Shown here piece after piece: positions 13,137-34,493 of a stretch of 37,386 bases of DNA. Below the pieces are notes generated by a model. It made no database searches, was not told the DNA's origin, and was given only the letters and a program-made list of their open reading frames with translations. Numbering within the stretch: the stretch's first letter is position 1; each line of letters opens with the position of its first letter. The translations under genes were made by a program, and so were the position numbers. Location of the stretch: contig JAHITE010000100.1 of assembly GCA_018817585.1 (NCBI GenBank), forward strand, positions 1-37,386, written 5' to 3'. This DNA comes from Candidatus Omnitrophota bacterium. GTDB taxonomy: Bacteria; Omnitrophota; Gorgyraeia; B26-G9.

Positions 13137-14416
13137 TAAATATTGATTCGCTAGTAGCCGGGCTGGATATCGGAAGCGCTAAAACCACGGTTTGTTTGGG
13201 AAGTGTTGATGCTCAGGGCCGCGTTGAAATCCACAATGCTTCGATGGTCAAGACTCGGGGCATGGAGCGGGGCGTGATCACTGATTTGGGTGAGGTAGCG
13301 GCTTGTATTGAGGAAGTGATTAAAAAAGTCGAAGCCAAAACGCAGCGTTCTGAACAGACAAACACGCTTTGGCCGAAAAAAAATTTTAAGATTAATTCGG
13401 TTTACGCCACAATCAGCGGGGAGCATGTATTGGGCAATAATACCAAGGGTATGCTTAATTTATCTAACCGTCCGATTGAAATCAGCCGTAAGGATATGCG
13501 CAAAGCAATTGAATCAGCCAAGTATTTATCAAGTTCAATTGACCGGGAAATTCTCCATGCTTTGGCCCAGGAATATGTGATTGACGGATACAAAAGAATC
13601 AAAGATCCTTTGGGAATTTATGCCACGCGTCTGGGAGTGAATCTGCATATTTTAACCGCTGAATTATCGTTTATCACTAATGTGGTTAAAGCGATTAACC
13701 GCGCGGGTATTGATGTTGAACAGATCGCTTATTCCGGGTTGGCAACCAGCCTGGCCACGATTACTGAGCAGGAAAAACAGGCGGGAGTGATTTTATTAGA
13801 GCTGGGCGCGGGTACAGTTAATATTCTGTTTTTCAATGAAGGCAGTTTGCAGTACACCCGTGTTATTCCGGTCGGCGGGCAGGATATTACTCAGCAGATC
13901 AGCAGTTTGCTGAACATTGATTTTGCCCAGGCGGAAGAGTTGAAAATGCAGTATCGAAGCCGCTGCGGCGGGGATTTTGATCAAGCGAGTTGTGAAGATA
14001 AAATAATAATCAAAAAAGACGCGGCTAATTATGAAAGCATTACCCGAAAAGAACTGGCGGAGATTATTGATAAAAAGCTGGATACTATTTTGGCAATGAT
14101 AAAAAAAGATATTGAACTGGCCGGGATTTTATCGCGGGTTAACTGCGGAGTGGTAGTTTGCGGCGGCATGTCTTTTATGGATGGGATTATCGAACGTTTA
14201 GAAAAAATAACTAAACTTCCGGTAAGCATGGGGATAATGCGGGGATTTGTCAGCAGCTCTTCGGGGATGAGTAATATCTTTTACGCGACCGGGATTGGTC
14301 TGGTTATGCACGCGCTTAATGAACGCCGGAATTTTAATCAGGGTGTATTTTTAACTAATAGTGTTTTTGGGAGAATATTCGCGAAACTCAAAAACATCTA
14401 TGAGGAGTATTTTTAA
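13133..14416 (+). CDS. ftsA: Cell division protein FtsA (actin-like membrane anchor)
   Basis: A 427-residue actin-fold ATPase that tethers FtsZ filaments to the inner membrane. The phosphate-1 motif GLDIGSAKTTVCLG is near 10-23. An SHS2-type insertion (about 80-160) includes ATISGEHV, and ELGAGTVNILFF is the phosphate-2 region. VVVCGGMSFMDGI is the adenosine region. The C-terminus VFGRIFAKLKNIYEEYF looks like the membrane-binding amphipathic helix. Retention of this helix suggests a working FtsA, although no ftsZ follows in this window. It overlaps ftsQ by 4 bases, and the next gene starts one base after its stop. Confidence 0.94.
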   Translation: MINIDSLVAGLDIGSAKTTVCLGSVDAQGRVEIHNASMVKTRGMERGVITDLGEVAACIEEVIKKVEAKTQRSEQTNTLWPKKNFKINSVYATISGEHVLGNNTKGMLNLSNRPIEISRKDMRKAIESAKYLSSSIDREILHALAQEYVIDGYKRIKDPLGIYATRLGVNLHILTAELSFITNVVKAINRAGIDVEQIAYSGLATSLATITEQEKQAGVILLELGAGTVNILFFNEGSLQYTRVIPVGGQDITQQISSLLNIDFAQAEELKMQYRSRCGGDFDQASCEDKIIIKKDAANYESITRKELAEIIDKKLDTILAMIKKDIELAGILSRVNCGVVVCGGMSFMDGIIERLEKITKLPVSMGIMRGFVSSSSGMSNIFYATGIGLVMHALNERRNFNQGVFLTNSVFGRIFAKLKNIYEEYF

Positions 14417-14417
14417 A

Positions 14418-15386
14418 ATGAAAGATAATGTATCGATAATGCTGATTGATCAAAATAGCGAGATCTTAGATTCTTTTGCCAGCTTGTTTATTGCTGAAGG
14501 CTATCAGGTTACCAAGGCGATGAGCTGGTTTGAAGCAAAATCATTTATTAAAATGAAACCATTTAATATTATTATTGCTGATGTTAAGCTGCCGGATATA
14601 AGCTATCAGGAAATGATTGAAAAAATCCGGCAAGAAAATAAATACGCTTTTATTATTACTACTGCTGGATTTTCTGATATTGAAATGGCCATGGAATCAA
14701 TTCAATTAGGCGCGCATGATTATCTGAGTAAGCCGTTTGATCCAACAGATACAATTGTTTTGATCCGGAAATTAGTGGAAAAACAGTGTTTGCAGGCTGA
14801 TAATATCCAGTTGTTTGATACAATTAAAGTTTTGGCCATGGCTTTGGATGCCCGCGATAATTATACGCATAATCATTCCCAGGAAGTTATGGAATACTCT
14901 GTAGCAATTGCCCGGGAAATGGGCTTAAGTGTCCGGGAAATAGAGATAATCCGTGATGCCGGAGCATTGCATGATATTGGAAAAATCGGTATCCCGGATG
15001 CCGTGCTGTTAAAGCCCGGCAGATTAACTGACGCGGAATATGAACAAATAAAAAAACATCCGGAAATCGGAAAAAATATTCTCGAACCCGTGAAGTGTTT
15101 GGCAGACAAAATCCCGCTGATTTATCATCATCATGAGCGGATTGACGGGGCTGGCTATCCCGTGGGTTTGGTCGGTGAGGATATTCCTCTGGGCGCGAGA
15201 ATTCTCGCTGTGGCTGATTCTTATCAGGCCATGACTTCTGATCGGCCGTATCGCAAGGCCTTGTCCATGCAGGTGGCGATTAGTGAATTAGAAAAATTCA
15301 AAAACCGGCAATTTGATTCTAAAATAGTTGATGTTTTTCTGCGAATTTTAAAACGTATGGGTAATGGGAAAATTAATCAGGAATAA
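14418..15386 (+). CDS. Response regulator with HD-GYP phosphodiesterase domain, in the ftsZ position
   Basis: A 322-residue two-domain protein. A receiver domain (about 5-120) has phospho-acceptor Asp55 in IIIADVKLPD and Lys105 in YLSKPF. An HD-GYP domain (about 135-315) has YTHNHSQEV, the metal-binding HD at 185-186 in ALHDIGKIGIPD, and HHERIDGAGYP with GYP at 246-248. HD-GYP proteins of this type hydrolyse c-di-GMP, and all visible motifs look intact. The start at 14418 is one base after the ftsA stop, with TGAGGAG at 14401-14407 inside ftsA. An upstream in-frame codon at 14361 inside ftsA is rejected. It lies where ftsZ is usually found, and pilT is 18 bases downstream. Confidence 0.93.
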   Translation: MKDNVSIMLIDQNSEILDSFASLFIAEGYQVTKAMSWFEAKSFIKMKPFNIIIADVKLPDISYQEMIEKIRQENKYAFIITTAGFSDIEMAMESIQLGAHDYLSKPFDPTDTIVLIRKLVEKQCLQADNIQLFDTIKVLAMALDARDNYTHNHSQEVMEYSVAIAREMGLSVREIEIIRDAGALHDIGKIGIPDAVLLKPGRLTDAEYEQIKKHPEIGKNILEPVKCLADKIPLIYHHHERIDGAGYPVGLVGEDIPLGARILAVADSYQAMTSDRPYRKALSMQVAISELEKFKNRQFDSKIVDVFLRILKRMGNGKINQE

Positions 15387-15404
15387 AACTCAATAGGAGT
15401 TATT

Positions 15405-16502
15405 ATGGAAATTGATTTGTTAGAGATGCTCAAAACAATGGTAAAGCAAGAGGCTTCAGACGCTCATTTCAAAGTCGGCCGCTCCCCGGTATTTAGAATA
15501 AAAAAAGAATTACTTAGTTCCTCGTTTCCGGTTCTTGCTAATAAAGATATTGAGAAAATCGCTTATTTTATGATGCGCGAGCGGCATAGAAAAGAATTTG
15601 AAAAAAGTAATGAAATTGATTTTTCTTATCAATTGCCGGAGATTGGCCGCTTTAGGGTAAACGTGTTTCGGCAAAGAGGCGATGTGGGGATTGTTATGCG
15701 GATTGTGAAAAACAAAGTCCCTTCTTTTGATGATCTGATGATTCCGGCGGTGTTTAAAAAAATCGCGATGTATGAACGAGGAATTGTCCTGATTACCGGA
15801 GCAAGTTCGCAGGGTAAATCAACAACTTTAGCAGCGGTTATTGATTATATTAATAATAATAAAAAATGCCATATTATGACCATTGAGGATCCGATTGAAT
15901 ATATTCATGAGGATAAACAGGCTTTGATCAATCAACGCGAAGTCGGCTTGGATACTGATTCGTTTAACATGGCTTTGCGTTATGTTATTCGCCAGGATCC
16001 GGATGTTATTCTGATTGGCGAAATGCGCGACGCGGAGACTTTTCAGACTGCTTTATCCGCCTCGGAAACAGGGCATTTGGTTTTCGCTACTTTGCATGCT
16101 TCGGATACTTCCCAGGTTGTCGACAGAATTCTTGATTTTTTTCCTGTGTCTCAGCACAATATGATTAGAATGCAGTTATCATTTAATCTCAGAGCAGTGA
16201 CTTGTCAGCGTTTGATGCCGCGGGTTGACGGCGAAGGGGTTGCTCCGGCAGTGGAAGTGATGCTGATTAATCCCACGATTGAGAAAATACTGCGGGATAA
16301 TAAGACAGACCGATTAAGCAATACCTTGCAGGCTTTTTCTAAGGAGGGCATGATCACGTTTAATCAATCCTTGGTAAATTTAGTCAAAAGCAAAATTATT
16401 TCTCTGGAAACCGCGCTGGCTACTTCCAGCAATCCGGAAGCTTTAAAAATGAATCTAAAAGGGATTTATCTGGATGAAGAACGCAGGATATTAGGTGAGT
16501 AG
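15405..16502 (+). CDS. pilT: Type IV pilus retraction-type ATPase, PilT/PilU family
   Basis: A 365-residue hexameric-type ATPase that powers pilus retraction or twitching at the inner face of the membrane. The N-terminus has the family's ASDAHFKVG (ASDLH-like) stretch. Walker A is GASSQGKS at 132-139, the Asp box IEDPIEYIHED follows, then Walker B DVILIGEMRDAET and the His box FATLHASDTSQVVDRILDFFP. The C-terminus ending in LKMNLKGI is PilT/PilU-like. The Walker A loop is ASSQ rather than the common TGSG-like form but still fits GxxxxGKS. The start has TAGGAG about 6 bases upstream. It overlaps the next gene by 8 bases. PilT and PilU cannot be separated by eye. Confidence 0.9.
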   Translation: MEIDLLEMLKTMVKQEASDAHFKVGRSPVFRIKKELLSSSFPVLANKDIEKIAYFMMRERHRKEFEKSNEIDFSYQLPEIGRFRVNVFRQRGDVGIVMRIVKNKVPSFDDLMIPAVFKKIAMYERGIVLITGASSQGKSTTLAAVIDYINNNKKCHIMTIEDPIEYIHEDKQALINQREVGLDTDSFNMALRYVIRQDPDVILIGEMRDAETFQTALSASETGHLVFATLHASDTSQVVDRILDFFPVSQHNMIRMQLSFNLRAVTCQRLMPRVDGEGVAPAVEVMLINPTIEKILRDNKTDRLSNTLQAFSKEGMITFNQSLVNLVKSKIISLETALATSSNPEALKMNLKGIYLDEERRILGE

Positions 16503-20294: not shown

Positions 20295-20675
20295 ATGAGT
20301 AAAAAAAACTTTTCCGTATTGGTTGTTGATGATGAGCAGGTTGTTAGGGAAATGGTCAGAAAGATTCTGTTTGATGAGGGATTTAAGGTTTTTGTTGCCG
20401 AAGATGGAAAATCAGCGATTGAAGTCGCCAGAAATCAGAATTTTGACGCGGCGCTTTTGGATATTAAACTTCCGGATATTAGCGGCGTAGAGGTCTTTGA
20501 AAGAATAAAAGTGTTTAGACCTAATGTGGAAGCTGTGATTATGACGGCCTATGAAATAAAAGAAATGGTTAACCGCGCTTTTGAATTGGGAGCTTTTGCT
20601 TGTCTGCATAAGCCTTTTGATATTAAAAAACTATTACAGATTTTAAATGACATTAAACGGAAAAATGAACAATAA
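20295..20675 (+). CDS. Single-domain response regulator (receiver only)
   Basis: A 126-residue stand-alone receiver. VVDDEQ (11-16) gives the acidic pair, the phospho-acceptor is Asp56 in ALLDIKLPD, Thr84 is in IMTAYE and Lys106 in LHKPFD. There is no output domain, so it is likely a phosphotransfer relay or a protein-binding switch of the CheY/Spo0F kind. It starts 33 bases after the soluble kinase and overlaps the diguanylate cyclase gene by 11 bases. A relay from kinase to receiver to cyclase is plausible but not shown. Confidence 0.92.
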   Translation: MSKKNFSVLVVDDEQVVREMVRKILFDEGFKVFVAEDGKSAIEVARNQNFDAALLDIKLPDISGVEVFERIKVFRPNVEAVIMTAYEIKEMVNRAFELGAFACLHKPFDIKKLLQILNDIKRKNEQ

Positions 20676-22098
20676 TTCTGAAAAATCAAAAATTCTATTA
20701 ATTGATGATGAACCAGTTATTCGAGAGACTTTATGCTCGATTTTAAAAGATGATGGGTATTTTGTTGCTACCGCGGATACCGGAGCAAAAGCAATTGCTT
20801 TAGCTGAGCAAGGTGATTTTGATGTGGCGATCATTGATTTAAAATTACCGGACGCGGAAGGTACTTTTGTTTTACACAATATTAAGAAAACCAACCCCGA
20901 AATATGCGCGATTATAATCACGGCCTATCCCACCACTGAATCAGCAATCCGGGCAATTCAGGAAGAAGCCTATGAATATATCACAAAACCGTTTGATATC
21001 GGCCATGTAAAACTAGTGATCAAACGCGGTTTAGAAGAAAAAAAACTGGGGTTTGAAAATAAACGGCTTTTAAATAATTTAAAAAAAGAAAAAGCAAAAC
21101 TTGAGACAATGCTTCAGATCGGCCACGCGATGAGTTCAATCCTGAATCTGGATGAATTAACCAAGTTTATTGTTAATGAAATCACAGTTGTTTTAAAGGC
21201 GAAAATCTGTTCATTGATGCTGATTGACCATGAGGATGAAACTTTGGTGATTAAAGCCGCGGTTGGTTTGGATGAGGCAATTATCAAAACCACCCGGATT
21301 AAACTGGGACAATCAATCAGCGGCTGGGTGGCGCAGCAGGGCGAGCCGGTTTTAATTTCTAATATTGAAGATGATATTCAGTTTGGCCGAGCGAATCTGC
21401 CGAAATATGAGACAAAATCATTGCTCTGCATTCCTTTAAAAGCAAAAGATAATATTCTGGGGGTAATCAATGTCGCGGATAAAACTATTCCGGAACAGGA
21501 AAATATCTTTACCGAAGAAGATATGCGCTTTTTAGCAATAATCTGCAATTACGCGGCAATTGCTTTGGAAAACGCTTTATTATATGGAGAGGTTAGAAAT
21601 CTGGCGATTACTGACGGCCTGACCAGTTTGTACAATCACCGCTATTTTCAGACAAATATAAATTCCGAATTAACCAGAGTGCTGCGTTATCCGCGGCCTT
21701 TATCTTTGATTATGTTTGACATTGATTTTTTTAAAACCTTTAATGATACTTATGGCCATCCGATGGGAGATCTTGTTTTAACCGAAATTTCCAAGGTAAT
21801 TAAAAAAAATGTGCGGAAGGTTGATATTGCCTGCCGTTATGGCGGCGAAGAATTCGCGGTTATTCTGCCGGAAACAAAAATCAAAGAAGCGATATTGGTT
21901 GCCGAGAAGATCCGGACTACAGTGGAAAAACTTCGGTTTAACACGGGACGGGGAAATAAGAAAGAAAAAGTGACAGTCAGCGGCGGGGTTGCTCAATTTA
22001 AATCCGGGATGACCAAAGCTGATTTTGTGCGCTGTGCTGATGATTCGCTTTATAAAGCAAAAAGCGAGGGGAAGAACAAAATTTGTATCTATTCTTAA
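20665..22098 (+). CDS. Response regulator diguanylate cyclase (receiver-GAF-GGDEF)
   Basis: A 477-residue protein. The receiver domain (about 8-125) has Asp58 in AIIDLKLPD and TKPFD. A linker coiled coil leads to a GAF domain (about 145-300; ISGWVAQQGEPVLISN and KSLLCIPLKAKDNILGVIN are GAF-like). The GGDEF domain has DGLTSLYNHRYF and active-site GGEEF at 393-397. RKVD at 384-387 lies exactly five residues before it, which fits the product-inhibition I-site RxxD. It should therefore make c-di-GMP and be feedback inhibited. The start at 20665 (MNNNSEK) is preferred over ATG 20647, though both are possible; the ribosome site is weak in either case. Confidence 0.93.
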   Translation: MNNNSEKSKILLIDDEPVIRETLCSILKDDGYFVATADTGAKAIALAEQGDFDVAIIDLKLPDAEGTFVLHNIKKTNPEICAIIITAYPTTESAIRAIQEEAYEYITKPFDIGHVKLVIKRGLEEKKLGFENKRLLNNLKKEKAKLETMLQIGHAMSSILNLDELTKFIVNEITVVLKAKICSLMLIDHEDETLVIKAAVGLDEAIIKTTRIKLGQSISGWVAQQGEPVLISNIEDDIQFGRANLPKYETKSLLCIPLKAKDNILGVINVADKTIPEQENIFTEEDMRFLAIICNYAAIALENALLYGEVRNLAITDGLTSLYNHRYFQTNINSELTRVLRYPRPLSLIMFDIDFFKTFNDTYGHPMGDLVLTEISKVIKKNVRKVDIACRYGGEEFAVILPETKIKEAILVAEKIRTTVEKLRFNTGRGNKKEKVTVSGGVAQFKSGMTKADFVRCADDSLYKAKSEGKNKICIYS

Positions 22099-29446: not shown

Positions 29447-30106
29447 ATGAAGAAAACGCTAACTGAAAATGATATTATTACTGAAGTAGGTAGTATCTGC
29501 GCCTGCAATTCTACACATGCTTTTTCCCAAATGATTAATCGGACTCTGCGGCTTGAGTCTCCGGCGCTTCAAGTTATAAAATTTAAAGATGTTGAGTCTA
29601 TTTTACAAAGCAAAGATAATATTGTTATTGGCGTGCATTGTCAGATCCTGGCAGGTATTTTAGGTCAGGTTTCTTTGCTGTTTAAGGAAAAAAGCGCTTT
29701 TGAATTTGTCTCAATTTTTGCCTCAAAAGAAAAACAATCCGCTGGTTTTTTAACTCAATTAGGAGTTTCTACGATTAAAGAAGTAGGTAATGTCGTTATT
29801 TCCGCGTATTCCGGAGCAATGAGTTTGCTGCTGGATGTCCCGGTTATTCCTTCGATTCCAGTATTGACCAGTGGTCCGTTAAAAGAAGTTATAAAATTCG
29901 GGATGATGAATCTGAATGAAGAAGATAAAGTTTTTGTGCATACAATGACTTTTCTCGATGAGCAAAGAAAAATAAACGGATCATTTTATTTAGTGCTTGA
30001 GCCGGAAACAGTTAAAAAAATAGTGGTGATGATGCGTAAACAGCTGGCTAATTTAAATAATTTAGACAAAGAAAAACTCGGGGCGAAAAAGTATGAAAGC
30101 TCATAA
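29447..30106 (+). CDS. CheC-like phosphatase/adaptor with one degenerate active site
   Basis: A 219-residue protein of the CheC/CheX/FliY phosphatase fold. CheC proteins dephosphorylate CheY-P through one or two sites of the form D/S-x3-E-x2-N. The first helix here reads ITEVGSICACNSTHAFSQMIN; Glu13 is kept but the Asn is Ser16, so site 1 looks impaired. The second site is intact: STIKEVGN with Ser108, Glu112 and Asn115, followed by IPSIPVL. It may act on the receivers encoded upstream or on a CheY elsewhere. The ATG at 29447 follows a G8 run. It overlaps the ComFB gene by 14 bases. Confidence 0.75.
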   Translation: MKKTLTENDIITEVGSICACNSTHAFSQMINRTLRLESPALQVIKFKDVESILQSKDNIVIGVHCQILAGILGQVSLLFKEKSAFEFVSIFASKEKQSAGFLTQLGVSTIKEVGNVVISAYSGAMSLLLDVPVIPSIPVLTSGPLKEVIKFGMMNLNEEDKVFVHTMTFLDEQRKINGSFYLVLEPETVKKIVVMMRKQLANLNNLDKEKLGAKKYESS

Positions 30107-30356
30107 TATAATGGAAGACATTGTAGAAAAATATCTTAAGGAAATGATTCTTGCTGACAAGACAGTGTGTAAGTGTGAAAGCTGTTATGATAAAATGATT
30201 GCCGAAGTTTTAAGTAATATTCCGGCTAAATATGTTACTTCAGAAACCGGAGCAATATACGCGGTGATTGAACAGGTTCGGGTAGAACAATCATCAGTTA
30301 TTTTAAAAGAATTAGTTAAAATCATGAAAAATTTAAAGCCGCATTCTAAGACCTGA
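30093..30356 (+). CDS. Stand-alone ComFB-domain protein
   Basis: An 87-residue protein that is essentially one ComFB domain: NIMEDIVEKYLKEM, then CKCESC with Cys26, Cys28 and Cys31, then IAEVLSNIPAKYVTSETGAIYA. ComFB (late competence protein family) domains have been reported as cyclic dinucleotide receptors in cyanobacteria; that is my recollection of the literature, not something visible here. It overlaps the cheC-like gene by 14 bases and lies 39 bases before the ComFB-CheR fusion. The fusion's N-terminus matches it almost without gaps (MKA-NIMEDI--KYL-EM, same Cys spacing), so the two arose by tandem duplication. Confidence 0.82.
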   Translation: MKAHNIMEDIVEKYLKEMILADKTVCKCESCYDKMIAEVLSNIPAKYVTSETGAIYAVIEQVRVEQSSVILKELVKIMKNLKPHSKT

Positions 30357-30395: not shown

Positions 30396-31493
30396 ATGAA
30401 AGCATTTAATATCATGGAGGATATTACAAAGAAGTATCTTGATGAGATGCTGTCGATGCGATTTGACATTTGCACTTGTGATCTCTGCAAACAAGATATT
30501 ATTGCTTTTGCTTTATCCCGGATTCCTCCCAAATATATTACTGTTGATTCTTTTACGGATAAATTGATTCAACAAATCCGTACAGAAAATTCCCAACTCA
30601 TAGTAAAAGAGCTGGTTGCTGCCGTCCGGACAATAACCTCAAATCCGCGGCATGAAGAAGGTTTGGATCGGGAAAAAGCCTATCATTTATTAATGAAGCA
30701 GATTAAGGATGACAGGGGTGTTGATTTTTCTCATTATCGCGATCGAGTTTTAAAGCGGAGGATTGCTTTGCGGATGCGGGCTAAAAATGTGCAAACATAT
30801 TCTGAATACCTTCAGGTCTTGATTCATAATTCTGAGGAGTATGAGGAATTATTTAATGTCTTAACGATTAATGTTTCTGCTTTTTTCCGGGATAAGCCAA
30901 TATGGGATAAACTTAAACAGGATGTTTTTCCCGCGCTTATTGCCAAGAAATTAAAAGAACATGGTTTACGGAGAATAAGGATCTGGAGTGCTGGGTGTTC
31001 GCATGGAGAAGAGCCCTATTCATTAGCGATTATGCTCTATGAACTGACGGAAAAAATGCCGGAAAAAATAAAAATAGAAATTTACGGCAGTGATATTGAT
31101 CGGGAGTGTTTAAAACAAGCGATGCTTGGGCAATATAACAGTGAAAGTGTTAAAGGACTGACTCCTTATCAACTGCGGCGTTTTTTTATACCGATTAATG
31201 ATAAATACCAAGTTGTTCCGCAGATAAAGGAGCTTGTTCAGTTTAAAAATCGTAATCTGATTCATGATCCGGCTTTTTCGGGTGTTGATATGATTACTTG
31301 CCGCAATGTATTTATCTATTTTAACCGTAGTTTGCAAGAGTATCTTATAATGAAATATCATGAAGCTTTGGTTGATGAAGGCTATTTTGTCATGGGGACA
31401 TCAGAAAATCTTCTGGGTGAGGCCAGACAGGTTTTTAGCGGCGTAGACAGCAGTTATCGAATTTATCAAAAAATCTCAATCAAGAAATATTAA
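30396..31493 (+). CDS. ComFB-CheR fusion: ComFB domain joined to a chemoreceptor-type methyltransferase
   Basis: A 365-residue protein with two domains. Residues 1-85 are a ComFB domain (MKAFNIMEDI, Cys26, Cys28 and Cys31 in CTCDLC, ALSRIPPKYI). From about 90 it is CheR: the all-helical N-terminal part (FSHYRDRVLKRRIALRMR, LTINVSAFFRD), the SAM-binding AGCSHGEEPYS at 199-209, YGSDIDRECL, and ITCRNVFIYF near 300, ending FVMGTSENLL. CheR transfers methyl groups from SAM to receptor glutamates. No receptor, CheA, CheW or CheB is in the window. A ribosome site (GCGGAG, 30381-30386) precedes the ATG. The fusion suggests that a cyclic dinucleotide controls methylation. Confidence 0.88.
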   Translation: MKAFNIMEDITKKYLDEMLSMRFDICTCDLCKQDIIAFALSRIPPKYITVDSFTDKLIQQIRTENSQLIVKELVAAVRTITSNPRHEEGLDREKAYHLLMKQIKDDRGVDFSHYRDRVLKRRIALRMRAKNVQTYSEYLQVLIHNSEEYEELFNVLTINVSAFFRDKPIWDKLKQDVFPALIAKKLKEHGLRRIRIWSAGCSHGEEPYSLAIMLYELTEKMPEKIKIEIYGSDIDRECLKQAMLGQYNSESVKGLTPYQLRRFFIPINDKYQVVPQIKELVQFKNRNLIHDPAFSGVDMITCRNVFIYFNRSLQEYLIMKYHEALVDEGYFVMGTSENLLGEARQVFSGVDSSYRIYQKISIKKY

Positions 31494-31732: not shown

Positions 31733-31816
31733 TATAAACAAGGCAATTTTTTGCTGATTTAATTGTTTTAAGTTTTAGCTGGATTTAGTGTGTGTGTAAC
31801 CTGGAGCGATAAGTTT

Positions 31817-32506
31817 ATGGCGGCAAATAAAAGAAGATATTCCCGGCTGGATTCTGTGATTAATGGAACATTTCTTTCTAGAGAAGATAATGCCTGCGGC
31901 GATATGCTGATGACAAATTTTAGCCGCGACGGATTTAAAGCAGCGCTAAATCGCCCAATAGTTCCTGGAAGAATTATTCAGTTTCAAATGCGATATCTGA
32001 ATTATACCATGCCGATTTTTGCTACAGGCAAAGTAATGTGGGTTAAAGCCAAAAATCAGGATTTAACTTATGGCTTTGACGCCGGCATACAGCTTATTGA
32101 GCCGGATGCTGTAACCCGTCAAAAAGCCAGTGAATATGATTTTGATAATTGGCATATTAAGCAGGTTGCTGAATTCGCGAGGCAAAGAGGTTATCTGGCC
32201 AAGCATTTTCCTGAGCCGGGTTTGAAATTATCTTGTTTTGTGCCCAGTTTTTTATTAGGCTACTTTGTCTTAGGCGCGATAGTTTCTTTTTTTAGTATAA
32301 ATATGGCTTTAATATACTCCGCGAGTATTATGGCTTATTTCTTATCGATATTTGCCACAAGCGCGATCTGGCTGTTAGTAGAAAAGAGCCAGAAATCCGG
32401 GGTTAAAAAAATGGCTTTGATCGTGCCGGTTAGCGCGGCGAGAATCTCCGCGCATATAAGCTATGGAGTGTTTTTTCTGCGGGGTTTATTTTCCCGGAAA
32501 ACATAG
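31817..32506 (+). CDS. PilZ-domain protein with C-terminal membrane segments
   Basis: A 229-residue protein. An N-terminal PilZ domain (about 5-105) has both c-di-GMP binding motifs: R-x3-R as Arg6-Arg10 in KRRYSRLD, and N-x-S-x2-G as Asn34, Ser36 and Gly39 in TNFSRDG. After a linker, residues of about 140-200 form two or three hydrophobic helices (FLLGYFVLGAIVSFF, MAYFLSIFATSAIWLLV), so it is predicted to be anchored in the inner membrane with a basic tail. The ATG at 31817, with GGAG at 31802-31805, is preferred over a GTG at 31790. c-di-GMP binding follows from the motifs; the output is unknown. Confidence 0.85.
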   Translation: MAANKRRYSRLDSVINGTFLSREDNACGDMLMTNFSRDGFKAALNRPIVPGRIIQFQMRYLNYTMPIFATGKVMWVKAKNQDLTYGFDAGIQLIEPDAVTRQKASEYDFDNWHIKQVAEFARQRGYLAKHFPEPGLKLSCFVPSFLLGYFVLGAIVSFFSINMALIYSASIMAYFLSIFATSAIWLLVEKSQKSGVKKMALIVPVSAARISAHISYGVFFLRGLFSRKT

Positions 32507-33170: not shown

Positions 33171-34493
33171 ATGATCGCAAAAGTAATAAATTTTATAAAA
33201 ACTGATATCTGGCGGATCCGCACGAAAAACCTTTCCAAAACAAAATCAATTCTGTTAAAACCGCTGATGATTATTATCTTGGCATTGCGCAGTTTTGATG
33301 AGGATAAATGCCAGCTAAGAGCCTCAGCCTTGACCTTTTTTTCCTTGCTTTCGATTGTGCCGATAATGGCTATGGCTTTCGGGATTGCCAAAGGCTTTGG
33401 TTTTGAAAAAGTTCTGGAAACGATTATGCTGGAAAAATTTTCCGGGCAGGAAGAATTTATTACCCGGGTTATTGGCTTTGCTCAGGTTCTTTTGGATAAT
33501 ACCCAGGGCGGGATGATTGCTGGAATTGGTGTGGCGGTTTTATTTTGGACAGTAATAAAAGTATTGGGCAATATTGAGAAATCGTTTAATGATATCTGGG
33601 GAATTAAGACATCAAGAAGCATGGGCAGAAAATTCAGTGATTATCTATCAATTATGCTGATCTGTCCGCTATTGTTTATTATTTCCAGCTCAGTAACTGT
33701 GCTGATTGCCAGTCAGATAAGGCTTATCGTGGAAAAAATAGCTTTTCTTGGTGTGTTTAGTCCGCTTATTTTGTTATCTTTGAAAATATTGCCATTTATT
33801 GTGATCTGGGTTCTTTTTTCGTTTATCTATGTTTTTATGCCTAATACAAAAGTTTATTTAAAATCAGCCTTTGTCGGCGGGATTGTTGGTGGAACATTAT
33901 TTCAGATAATGCAGTGGGCTTATATTGCTTTTCAGGTTGGAGTGGCTAAGTACAACGCGATTTACGGCAGTTTTGCCGCATTGCCATTGTTTTTAGTTTG
34001 GATGCAGATCAGCTGGCTGATTGTCCTGTTTGGCGCTGAGATTTCCTTTGCCTGTCAGAATCTGGAAACCTATGAATTTGAGCCGGATTGTTTAAGTGTC
34101 AGCTATAGTTATAAACAACTGTTGACAATTAATATTGCCCATCTGATCTTTAACAGCTTTAGCGCTGGCGGAAAGATCTGGACTGCCGCAGCTATATCGC
34201 ATGAGTTAGAAATACCAATTCGCTTAATCCGGCAGATACTGTTTGAATTAGTCGAAGCTAATGTTTTGATTGAAACAAAGGAACTGGCTGGGGCGGGTCT
34301 GGGATATCAGCCAGCGCATTCTCCTGAAAATATAACGATTAAAGATATTATTGATAAATTAGAACATAAAGGTACAGATAATATCCCAGTGGTCCAGAAC
34401 AGTACTTTTAAGACAATTAAAGAGTCATTGCTAGCCATGGATAAGTCTCTGAGTAAGTCCGTGGCTAATTTGAAGATAAACGAGATTAAATAA
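33171..34493 (+). CDS. YihY/BrkB-family inner-membrane protein
   Basis: A 440-residue polytopic protein of the YihY (formerly 'RNase BN') family. The conserved start of the domain, QLRASALTFFSLLSIVPIMAMAFG, is near 46-69. About six hydrophobic helices follow, with FNDIWGIKTSRSMGRKFSDYLS, YVFMPNTKVYLKSAFVGGIVGG and LPLFLVWMQISWLIVLFGAEISFA typical of the family. A soluble C-terminal part (about 310-440) resembles a winged-helix region (AAAISHELEIPIRLIRQILFELV), an extension seen in some members. The biochemical role of the family is not settled. GGAGG precedes the ATG. mscS follows after 12 bases. Confidence 0.88.
   Translation: MIAKVINFIKTDIWRIRTKNLSKTKSILLKPLMIIILALRSFDEDKCQLRASALTFFSLLSIVPIMAMAFGIAKGFGFEKVLETIMLEKFSGQEEFITRVIGFAQVLLDNTQGGMIAGIGVAVLFWTVIKVLGNIEKSFNDIWGIKTSRSMGRKFSDYLSIMLICPLLFIISSSVTVLIASQIRLIVEKIAFLGVFSPLILLSLKILPFIVIWVLFSFIYVFMPNTKVYLKSAFVGGIVGGTLFQIMQWAYIAFQVGVAKYNAIYGSFAALPLFLVWMQISWLIVLFGAEISFACQNLETYEFEPDCLSVSYSYKQLLTINIAHLIFNSFSAGGKIWTAAAISHELEIPIRLIRQILFELVEANVLIETKELAGAGLGYQPAHSPENITIKDIIDKLEHKGTDNIPVVQNSTFKTIKESLLAMDKSLSKSVANLKINEIK

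Follow-up and report, generated by a model that had tools for sequence, protein, structure and literature searches.

A ComFB domain is joined to a CheR methyltransferase in a single protein encoded in the window (the whole 37,386-nucleotide stretch of Omnitrophota DNA analysed here), and this ComFB-CheR fusion is both real and conserved. Judged by its sequence, the protein is a predicted chemoreceptor methyltransferase with a zinc-type ComFB domain at its N-terminus. It represents a likely ComFB-CheR partnership in fused form; elsewhere in Omnitrophota, ComFB is encoded by its own gene directly before cheR. Our explanation as a whole, in which ComFB and CheR are partners, CheR would be controlled via ComFB and the input would be a cyclic dinucleotide, is finely balanced, and we give it an even chance.

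Domain architecture of the fusion protein

The fusion is encoded by an uninterrupted reading frame with 365 codons of protein (Table 1). The original prediction assigned residues 1-85 to ComFB and the remainder to a complete CheR enzyme, and both assignments held. A Pfam domain search placed ComFB at residues 5-84, followed by CheR_N and CheR, with every domain scoring above its cut-off, and the FFR, SAGCSHGEEPYS and CRNVFIYF motifs of the CheR half are intact. The fused ComFB was found again by an independent genome-wide HMM search, and the linker that separates it from CheR_N is about a dozen residues long. No PilZ domain was detected when the ORF was searched with Pfam.

Structural models agree with this domain assignment. 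AlphaFold2 produced a confident model of the whole fusion (pLDDT 86.6) and a model of the ComFB domain alone with a pLDDT of 92.8. In Foldseek searches the fusion model matched Bacillus subtilis CheR (5ftw) at 4.5e-22, and 5xly, which contains CheR1 together with c-di-GMP-bound MapZ, was also among the high-ranking matches. The top match to the ComFB domain model was B. subtilis ComFB (4wai; 1.2e-04, TM 0.68-0.70), followed by Synechocystis CdgR with c-di-GMP (8hja; 2.2e-03), and the next match had an E value of 3.3.

Table 1. Position in the window of the fusion, its domains and putative zinc ligands, and neighbouring genes.
Feature	Position	Strand	Evidence
ComFB-CheR fusion protein, 365 aa	30396..31493	+	ComFB, CheR_N and CheR each above Pfam cut-off; 31 homologous ORFs in 27 genomes
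ComFB domain, residues 5-84	30408..30647	+	Pfam E 1.8e-13, 50.8 bits against a cut-off of 25
Codons of C26, C28 and C31, three putative Zn ligands	30471..30488	+	Match B. subtilis ComFB zinc cysteines (PMC4381287); invariant in fusions
Codon of H86, putative fourth Zn ligand, ComFB/CheR_N junction	30651..30653	+	Alignment
CheR_N, all-alpha domain, residues 96-145	30681..30830	+	Pfam 44.8 bits
CheR SAM-binding methyltransferase domain, residues 159-352	30870..31451	+	Pfam 4.6e-53, 180 bits
ComFB2, stand-alone ComFB gene, 87 aa, directly upstream of fusion	30093..30356	+	Pfam ComFB 4.3e-13
CheC-like phosphatase gene, overlaps ComFB2 start by 14 nt	29447..30106	+	NCBIfam CheC 1e-21, under the model's curated cut-off
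PilZ protein downstream of fusion	31790..32506	+	Pfam PilZ 2.1e-05, above cut-off; RxxxR and NxSxxG motifs
REC-GAF-GGDEF protein, c-di-GMP synthesis (context)	20647..22098	+	
REC-HD-GYP-type protein, c-di-GMP breakdown (context)	14361..15386	+	Pfam HD_5 1.8e-39

Zinc site and dimer interface

By alignment, the fused ComFB carries a putative zinc site of the B. subtilis type, made up of three closely spaced cysteines and a distant Cys or His, either of which can act as the fourth ligand in ComFB (PMC4381287). Among the fused domains tabulated, the three cysteines are present in 25/25 and the histidine in 24/25; in the alignment, histidine occupies the H86 position in 91% of one fusion group and 100% of the other. 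B. subtilis ComFB is a dimer (PMC4381287), and its interface residues N4, E7, D33, Y46 and T48 align with N5, E8, D34, Y47 and T49 of the window protein. Most of the B. subtilis interface positions are kept in the window fusion, and the interface residues are weaker in fusions outside family f1.

Distribution of the fusion and probable pairing of ComFB with CheR

The fusion is present in 11 of the 12 sampled genomes of the host family, and the family sample together with a survey of the phylum gave 31 fused ORFs in 27 Omnitrophota genomes belonging to four families. Some of the fusions outside the window's family have a degenerate ComFB domain that Pfam missed or scored below the cut-off. In a tree of CheR sequences the fusions form one clade (SH-aLRT 89), beside CheRs that are preceded by a ComFB gene. 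The fusions probably arose once, though a quick tree with no bootstrap, as used here, does not prove it.

Chance and assembly error were considered as sources of the fusion and excluded, since 31 ORFs from 27 genomes share the domain order. Tandem pairs of fusions occur in three genomes (L131:1764-3874, L132:251-2488 and L133:5450-7683); the ComFB domain of the downstream L131 fusion is too degenerate for Pfam, and one of the L132 copies seems to be interrupted by an in-frame TAG.

A scan of contigs, made with a ComFB alignment that favours close relatives (a wide alignment had no stretch conserved enough), returned ComFB-CheR fusions at Omnitrophota loci only. In a sample of 399 genomes centred on a Firmicutes MAG, one frame among the ComFB matches listed exceeded 300 aa (304 aa, judged on length only).

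The association of ComFB with CheR extends beyond the fusions. We found 72 ComFB matches and 139 full CheR matches in 384 Omnitrophota genomes, and 53 of the 72 ComFB genes are tied to CheR, 26 by fusion and 27 by lying directly 5' of it on the same strand; these cases are not independent events, because they were counted inside one phylum. Such a combination of fusion and adjacency usually marks proteins that work as a pair. A ComFB-CheR partnership in Omnitrophota is likely, because so large a share of the ComFB genes is fused to CheR or sits immediately before it. The ComFB genes immediately 5' of CheR are mostly found within chemotaxis operons, and at least a dozen loci place ComFB inside operons of the form CheY-CheC-CheA-CheC-PilM/FtsA-like-ComFB-CheR-CheY-CheD-CheB-CheC-CheW, the gene content of one of which (L152) was confirmed by Pfam. 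With operon adjacency and fusion together, support for a functional link is much stronger than was apparent in the original prediction. In Firmicutes, 30 ComFB loci inspected out to about 1.5 kb on either side had no adjoining CheR.

Several further arrangements of ComFB were seen. A protein of about 715 aa is encoded directly 5' of ComFB in the che operon of L152 (4415-6565), and likewise at L144, L146, L151 and L154; Pfam identifies the L152 copy as an FtsA/PilM-like ATPase with a ThiS-like C-terminus. At loci L086-L115 except L097 (Lachnospiraceae and related), ComFB forms the C-terminus of a protein of 227-474 aa that has a long, variable, low-complexity N-terminal part and starts MARKSNKTAHVLNL. 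Omnitrophota family f7 (e.g. L030, L034-L039) has ComFBs with N-terminal extensions and an LNRLWPMY motif that lack the zinc cysteines, mostly in genomes without a full CheR.

Genomic neighbourhood

Two genes upstream of the fusion, a second ComFB gene (ComFB2) and a CheC-like gene, were absent from the original prediction. ComFB2 is 42% identical to the fused ComFB domain and lies among or beside the fused f1 domains in a ComFB tree that is poorly resolved and has few alignment columns. The order of ComFB2 followed by the fusion recurs in four relatives (L043, L044, L045 and L049), and a PilZ homologue lies nearby, after the fusion, in four (L043, L045, L047 and L049). A CheC-like gene precedes the fusion in most f1 loci. 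In f1 the fusion lies outside the che cluster, with lsp, lgt and rluD-like genes as its neighbours. The genome as a whole encodes three ComFBs and four CheRs. The third ComFB gene, on contig 94, is 42 nt upstream of a separate cheR, and two other CheRs have no ComFB; contig 107 holds a full che cluster whose CheR is without one.

The original prediction also placed c-di-GMP synthesis, degradation and PilZ reading in the window, and the GAF-GGDEF (20647), HD-GYP (14361) and PilZ (31790) genes bear this out. Both motifs of the PilZ protein at 31790-32506 are intact and its C-terminal part is hydrophobic. The REC-HD-GYP-type gene sits directly 5' of a PilT-like ATPase gene, and this pair (14361-16502) takes the place expected of ftsZ, after ftsA in a mur/fts cluster. 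Positions 33171-34493 encode a BrkB-family membrane protein whose C-terminal region is Rrf2-like, scoring just below the Pfam cut-off.

Residue conservation and the question of nucleotide binding

That ComFB domains bind cyclic dinucleotides, as originally stated, is true of relatives. Synechocystis ComFB, a dimer, has low-micromolar affinity for c-di-AMP and c-di-GMP (PMC12313861), and CdgR has been solved with c-di-GMP (PDB 8hja).

A comparison of the zinc ligands and of N41, K/R57, Q64 and D68 separates the domains into three classes; the latter four positions are conserved in stand-alone ComFBs, although the family is not formally defined by them. The stand-alone ComFBs of che operons keep the zinc ligands as well as K/R57, Q64 and D68 (18/18). 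In the f1 stand-alone ComFBs beside CheR the zinc cysteines are mostly gone, and K57, Q64 and D68 are kept in 7/7. The fused domains retain the zinc ligands, and K/R57 or N41 is kept in none of 25; position 57 is aliphatic or other and position 41 is S/T or other in all 25, and Q64 and D68 are mostly changed. ComFB2 resembles the fused domains at 57, 64 and 68 and is half-changed at 41.

Positions 57, 64 and 68, spaced by 7 and then 4 residues, would share a face of the model's long helix (residues 55-82), and they form a candidate ligand site because they are conserved in stand-alone ComFBs. Sequence alignments to CdgR end near the end of the conserved core. The loss of K/R57 and N41, and in most cases of Q64 and D68, raises the possibility that the fused copy does not bind nucleotide. 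A direct-sensor reading of the fused domain is plausible, tempered by these losses; because the conserved residues have gone, and because their ligand role is itself that of a candidate, we lean somewhat against the prediction that this domain binds a cyclic dinucleotide.

Second messengers and probable output in the host

The host encodes a c-di-AMP cyclase as well as GGDEF and HD-GYP-type proteins, which makes it plausible that both c-di-AMP and c-di-GMP are available. Its genome has seven candidate MCPs. Flagellin and FliF gave no match in the host genome, nor in nine of the ten relatives tested. PilM matches, full-length ones among them, were obtained in all 11 genomes tested (the host and ten relatives), with a profile (PilM_2) that also picks up FtsA-like proteins. 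Because of the seven MCPs, PilM, the PilT-like gene and the lack of flagellin and FliF matches, the output is likely to be type IV pilus motility or surface behaviour. The effect of losing ComFB in Synechocystis, namely hyperpiliation with less of the pilus and phototaxis proteins, among them PilN, PilJ and CheA (PMC12313861), fits such an output.

Proposed mechanism and alternatives

We think it probable that ComFB contacts CheR and controls its activity, with the fusion dimerizing through ComFB, either with itself or with the co-encoded ComFB2. The input would be a cyclic dinucleotide received via the ComFB family, with either the fused domain or a stand-alone ComFB that has the usual conserved residues binding it. 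In this chemosensory system, which has type IV pili as its probable output, receptor methylation would then follow an internal second messenger, a proposal that we hold at slightly under an even chance. It is doubtful that the fused ComFB itself binds c-di-GMP or c-di-AMP and switches CheR on or off in systems steering type IV pili, not flagella; if true, a single protein would connect the second messenger with receptor methylation. Against ComFB control of CheR stands the full che cluster of contig 107, which has a CheR without ComFB in the same genome.

No feature of the fused domain is better conserved than its zinc ligands, N41, K/R57, Q64 and D68 are lost, and the B. subtilis dimer-interface residues are kept in the window (as N5, E8, D34, Y47 and T49). 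All of this would also suit a zinc-stabilized module with a structural or dimerization role only, one that pairs two CheR chains, or anchors the enzyme to a pilus complex or receptor array, and does not respond to nucleotide. We regard this as rather unlikely: the stand-alone ComFBs beside CheR keep K/R57, Q64 and D68 in both the che-operon (18/18) and f1 (7/7) sets, which suggests that the ancestral ComFB-CheR association was regulatory, and the dimer residues also weaken outside f1. The same ligands might instead make ComFB a sensor of zinc or redox state through Cys3His that relays to CheR, given the invariant CxCxxC, the placing of H86 at the CheR_N junction and the proposal of such a role for B. 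subtilis ComFB (PMC4381287). The zinc in that study was, however, tightly held, more like a structural site (PMC4381287), and f1 stand-alone ComFBs paired with CheR are mostly without the cysteines, so that zinc or redox sensing appears improbable.

The chemotaxis reading could also be wrong for this paralogue, if the fused enzyme methylates a target other than a chemoreceptor, such as a pilus or envelope protein. Its location in f1 outside the che cluster, beside lsp, lgt and rluD-like genes, would allow for this, as would the presence of two other CheRs without ComFB. Yet a CheC-like gene is directly upstream in most f1 loci, CheR_N and the catalytic motifs are intact and the genome has seven MCPs; there is little likelihood, in our estimation, of a non-chemoreceptor target.

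Control of CheR by ComFB would have consequences beyond this protein. Adaptation by receptor methylation is usually taken as a response to outside stimuli. After PilZ-MapZ, a conserved ComFB-CheR pairing would be a second, unrelated route by which an internal messenger sets adaptation, and one that would operate in uncultured bacteria without detected flagella. The pairing also suggests a role for ComFB itself, few of whose target proteins are, to our knowledge, established. ComFB-CheR pairs are small, expressible proteins, and the idea is directly testable.

Comparison with known systems

The original prediction knew of no description of this architecture, and in the literature that we searched we met none, nor any of ComFB joined to chemotaxis; the two papers naming both ComFB and CheR are, by title and abstract, competence papers. 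A 2024 preprint outside that literature reportedly finds that several ComFBs, that of B. subtilis included, bind c-di-GMP and that ComFB is a wide family of c-di-NMP receptors. Novelty is provisional, because this preprint might list architectures.

With the ComFB family (PF10719; 4wai, 8hja) the fusion shares the profile, the fold, the zinc cysteines (as in 4wai) and most dimer-interface positions, but its ComFB is joined to CheR and has lost N41, K/R57 and mostly Q64 and D68 of the stand-alone members. It has CheR_N and CheR, the motifs and the fold in common with the CheR methyltransferases of B. subtilis (5ftw) and Salmonella (1af7), from which it differs in its N-terminal ComFB and in a host without detected flagellar genes. 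The likeness to MapZ-CheR1 of Pseudomonas aeruginosa (5xly, 5y4r), where c-di-GMP-bound MapZ inhibits CheR1 methylation of MCPs (PMC6370697), lies in the coupling of a putative c-di-NMP receptor to CheR. The fusion would serve a comparable purpose with another domain. The parallel drawn in the original prediction is only a partial one, because in the host of the fusion there are pilus genes while flagellin and FliF gave no match, as is also the case for nine of the ten relatives: MapZ is a PilZ protein that acts in trans in a flagellated cell, whereas here ComFB is placed in cis.
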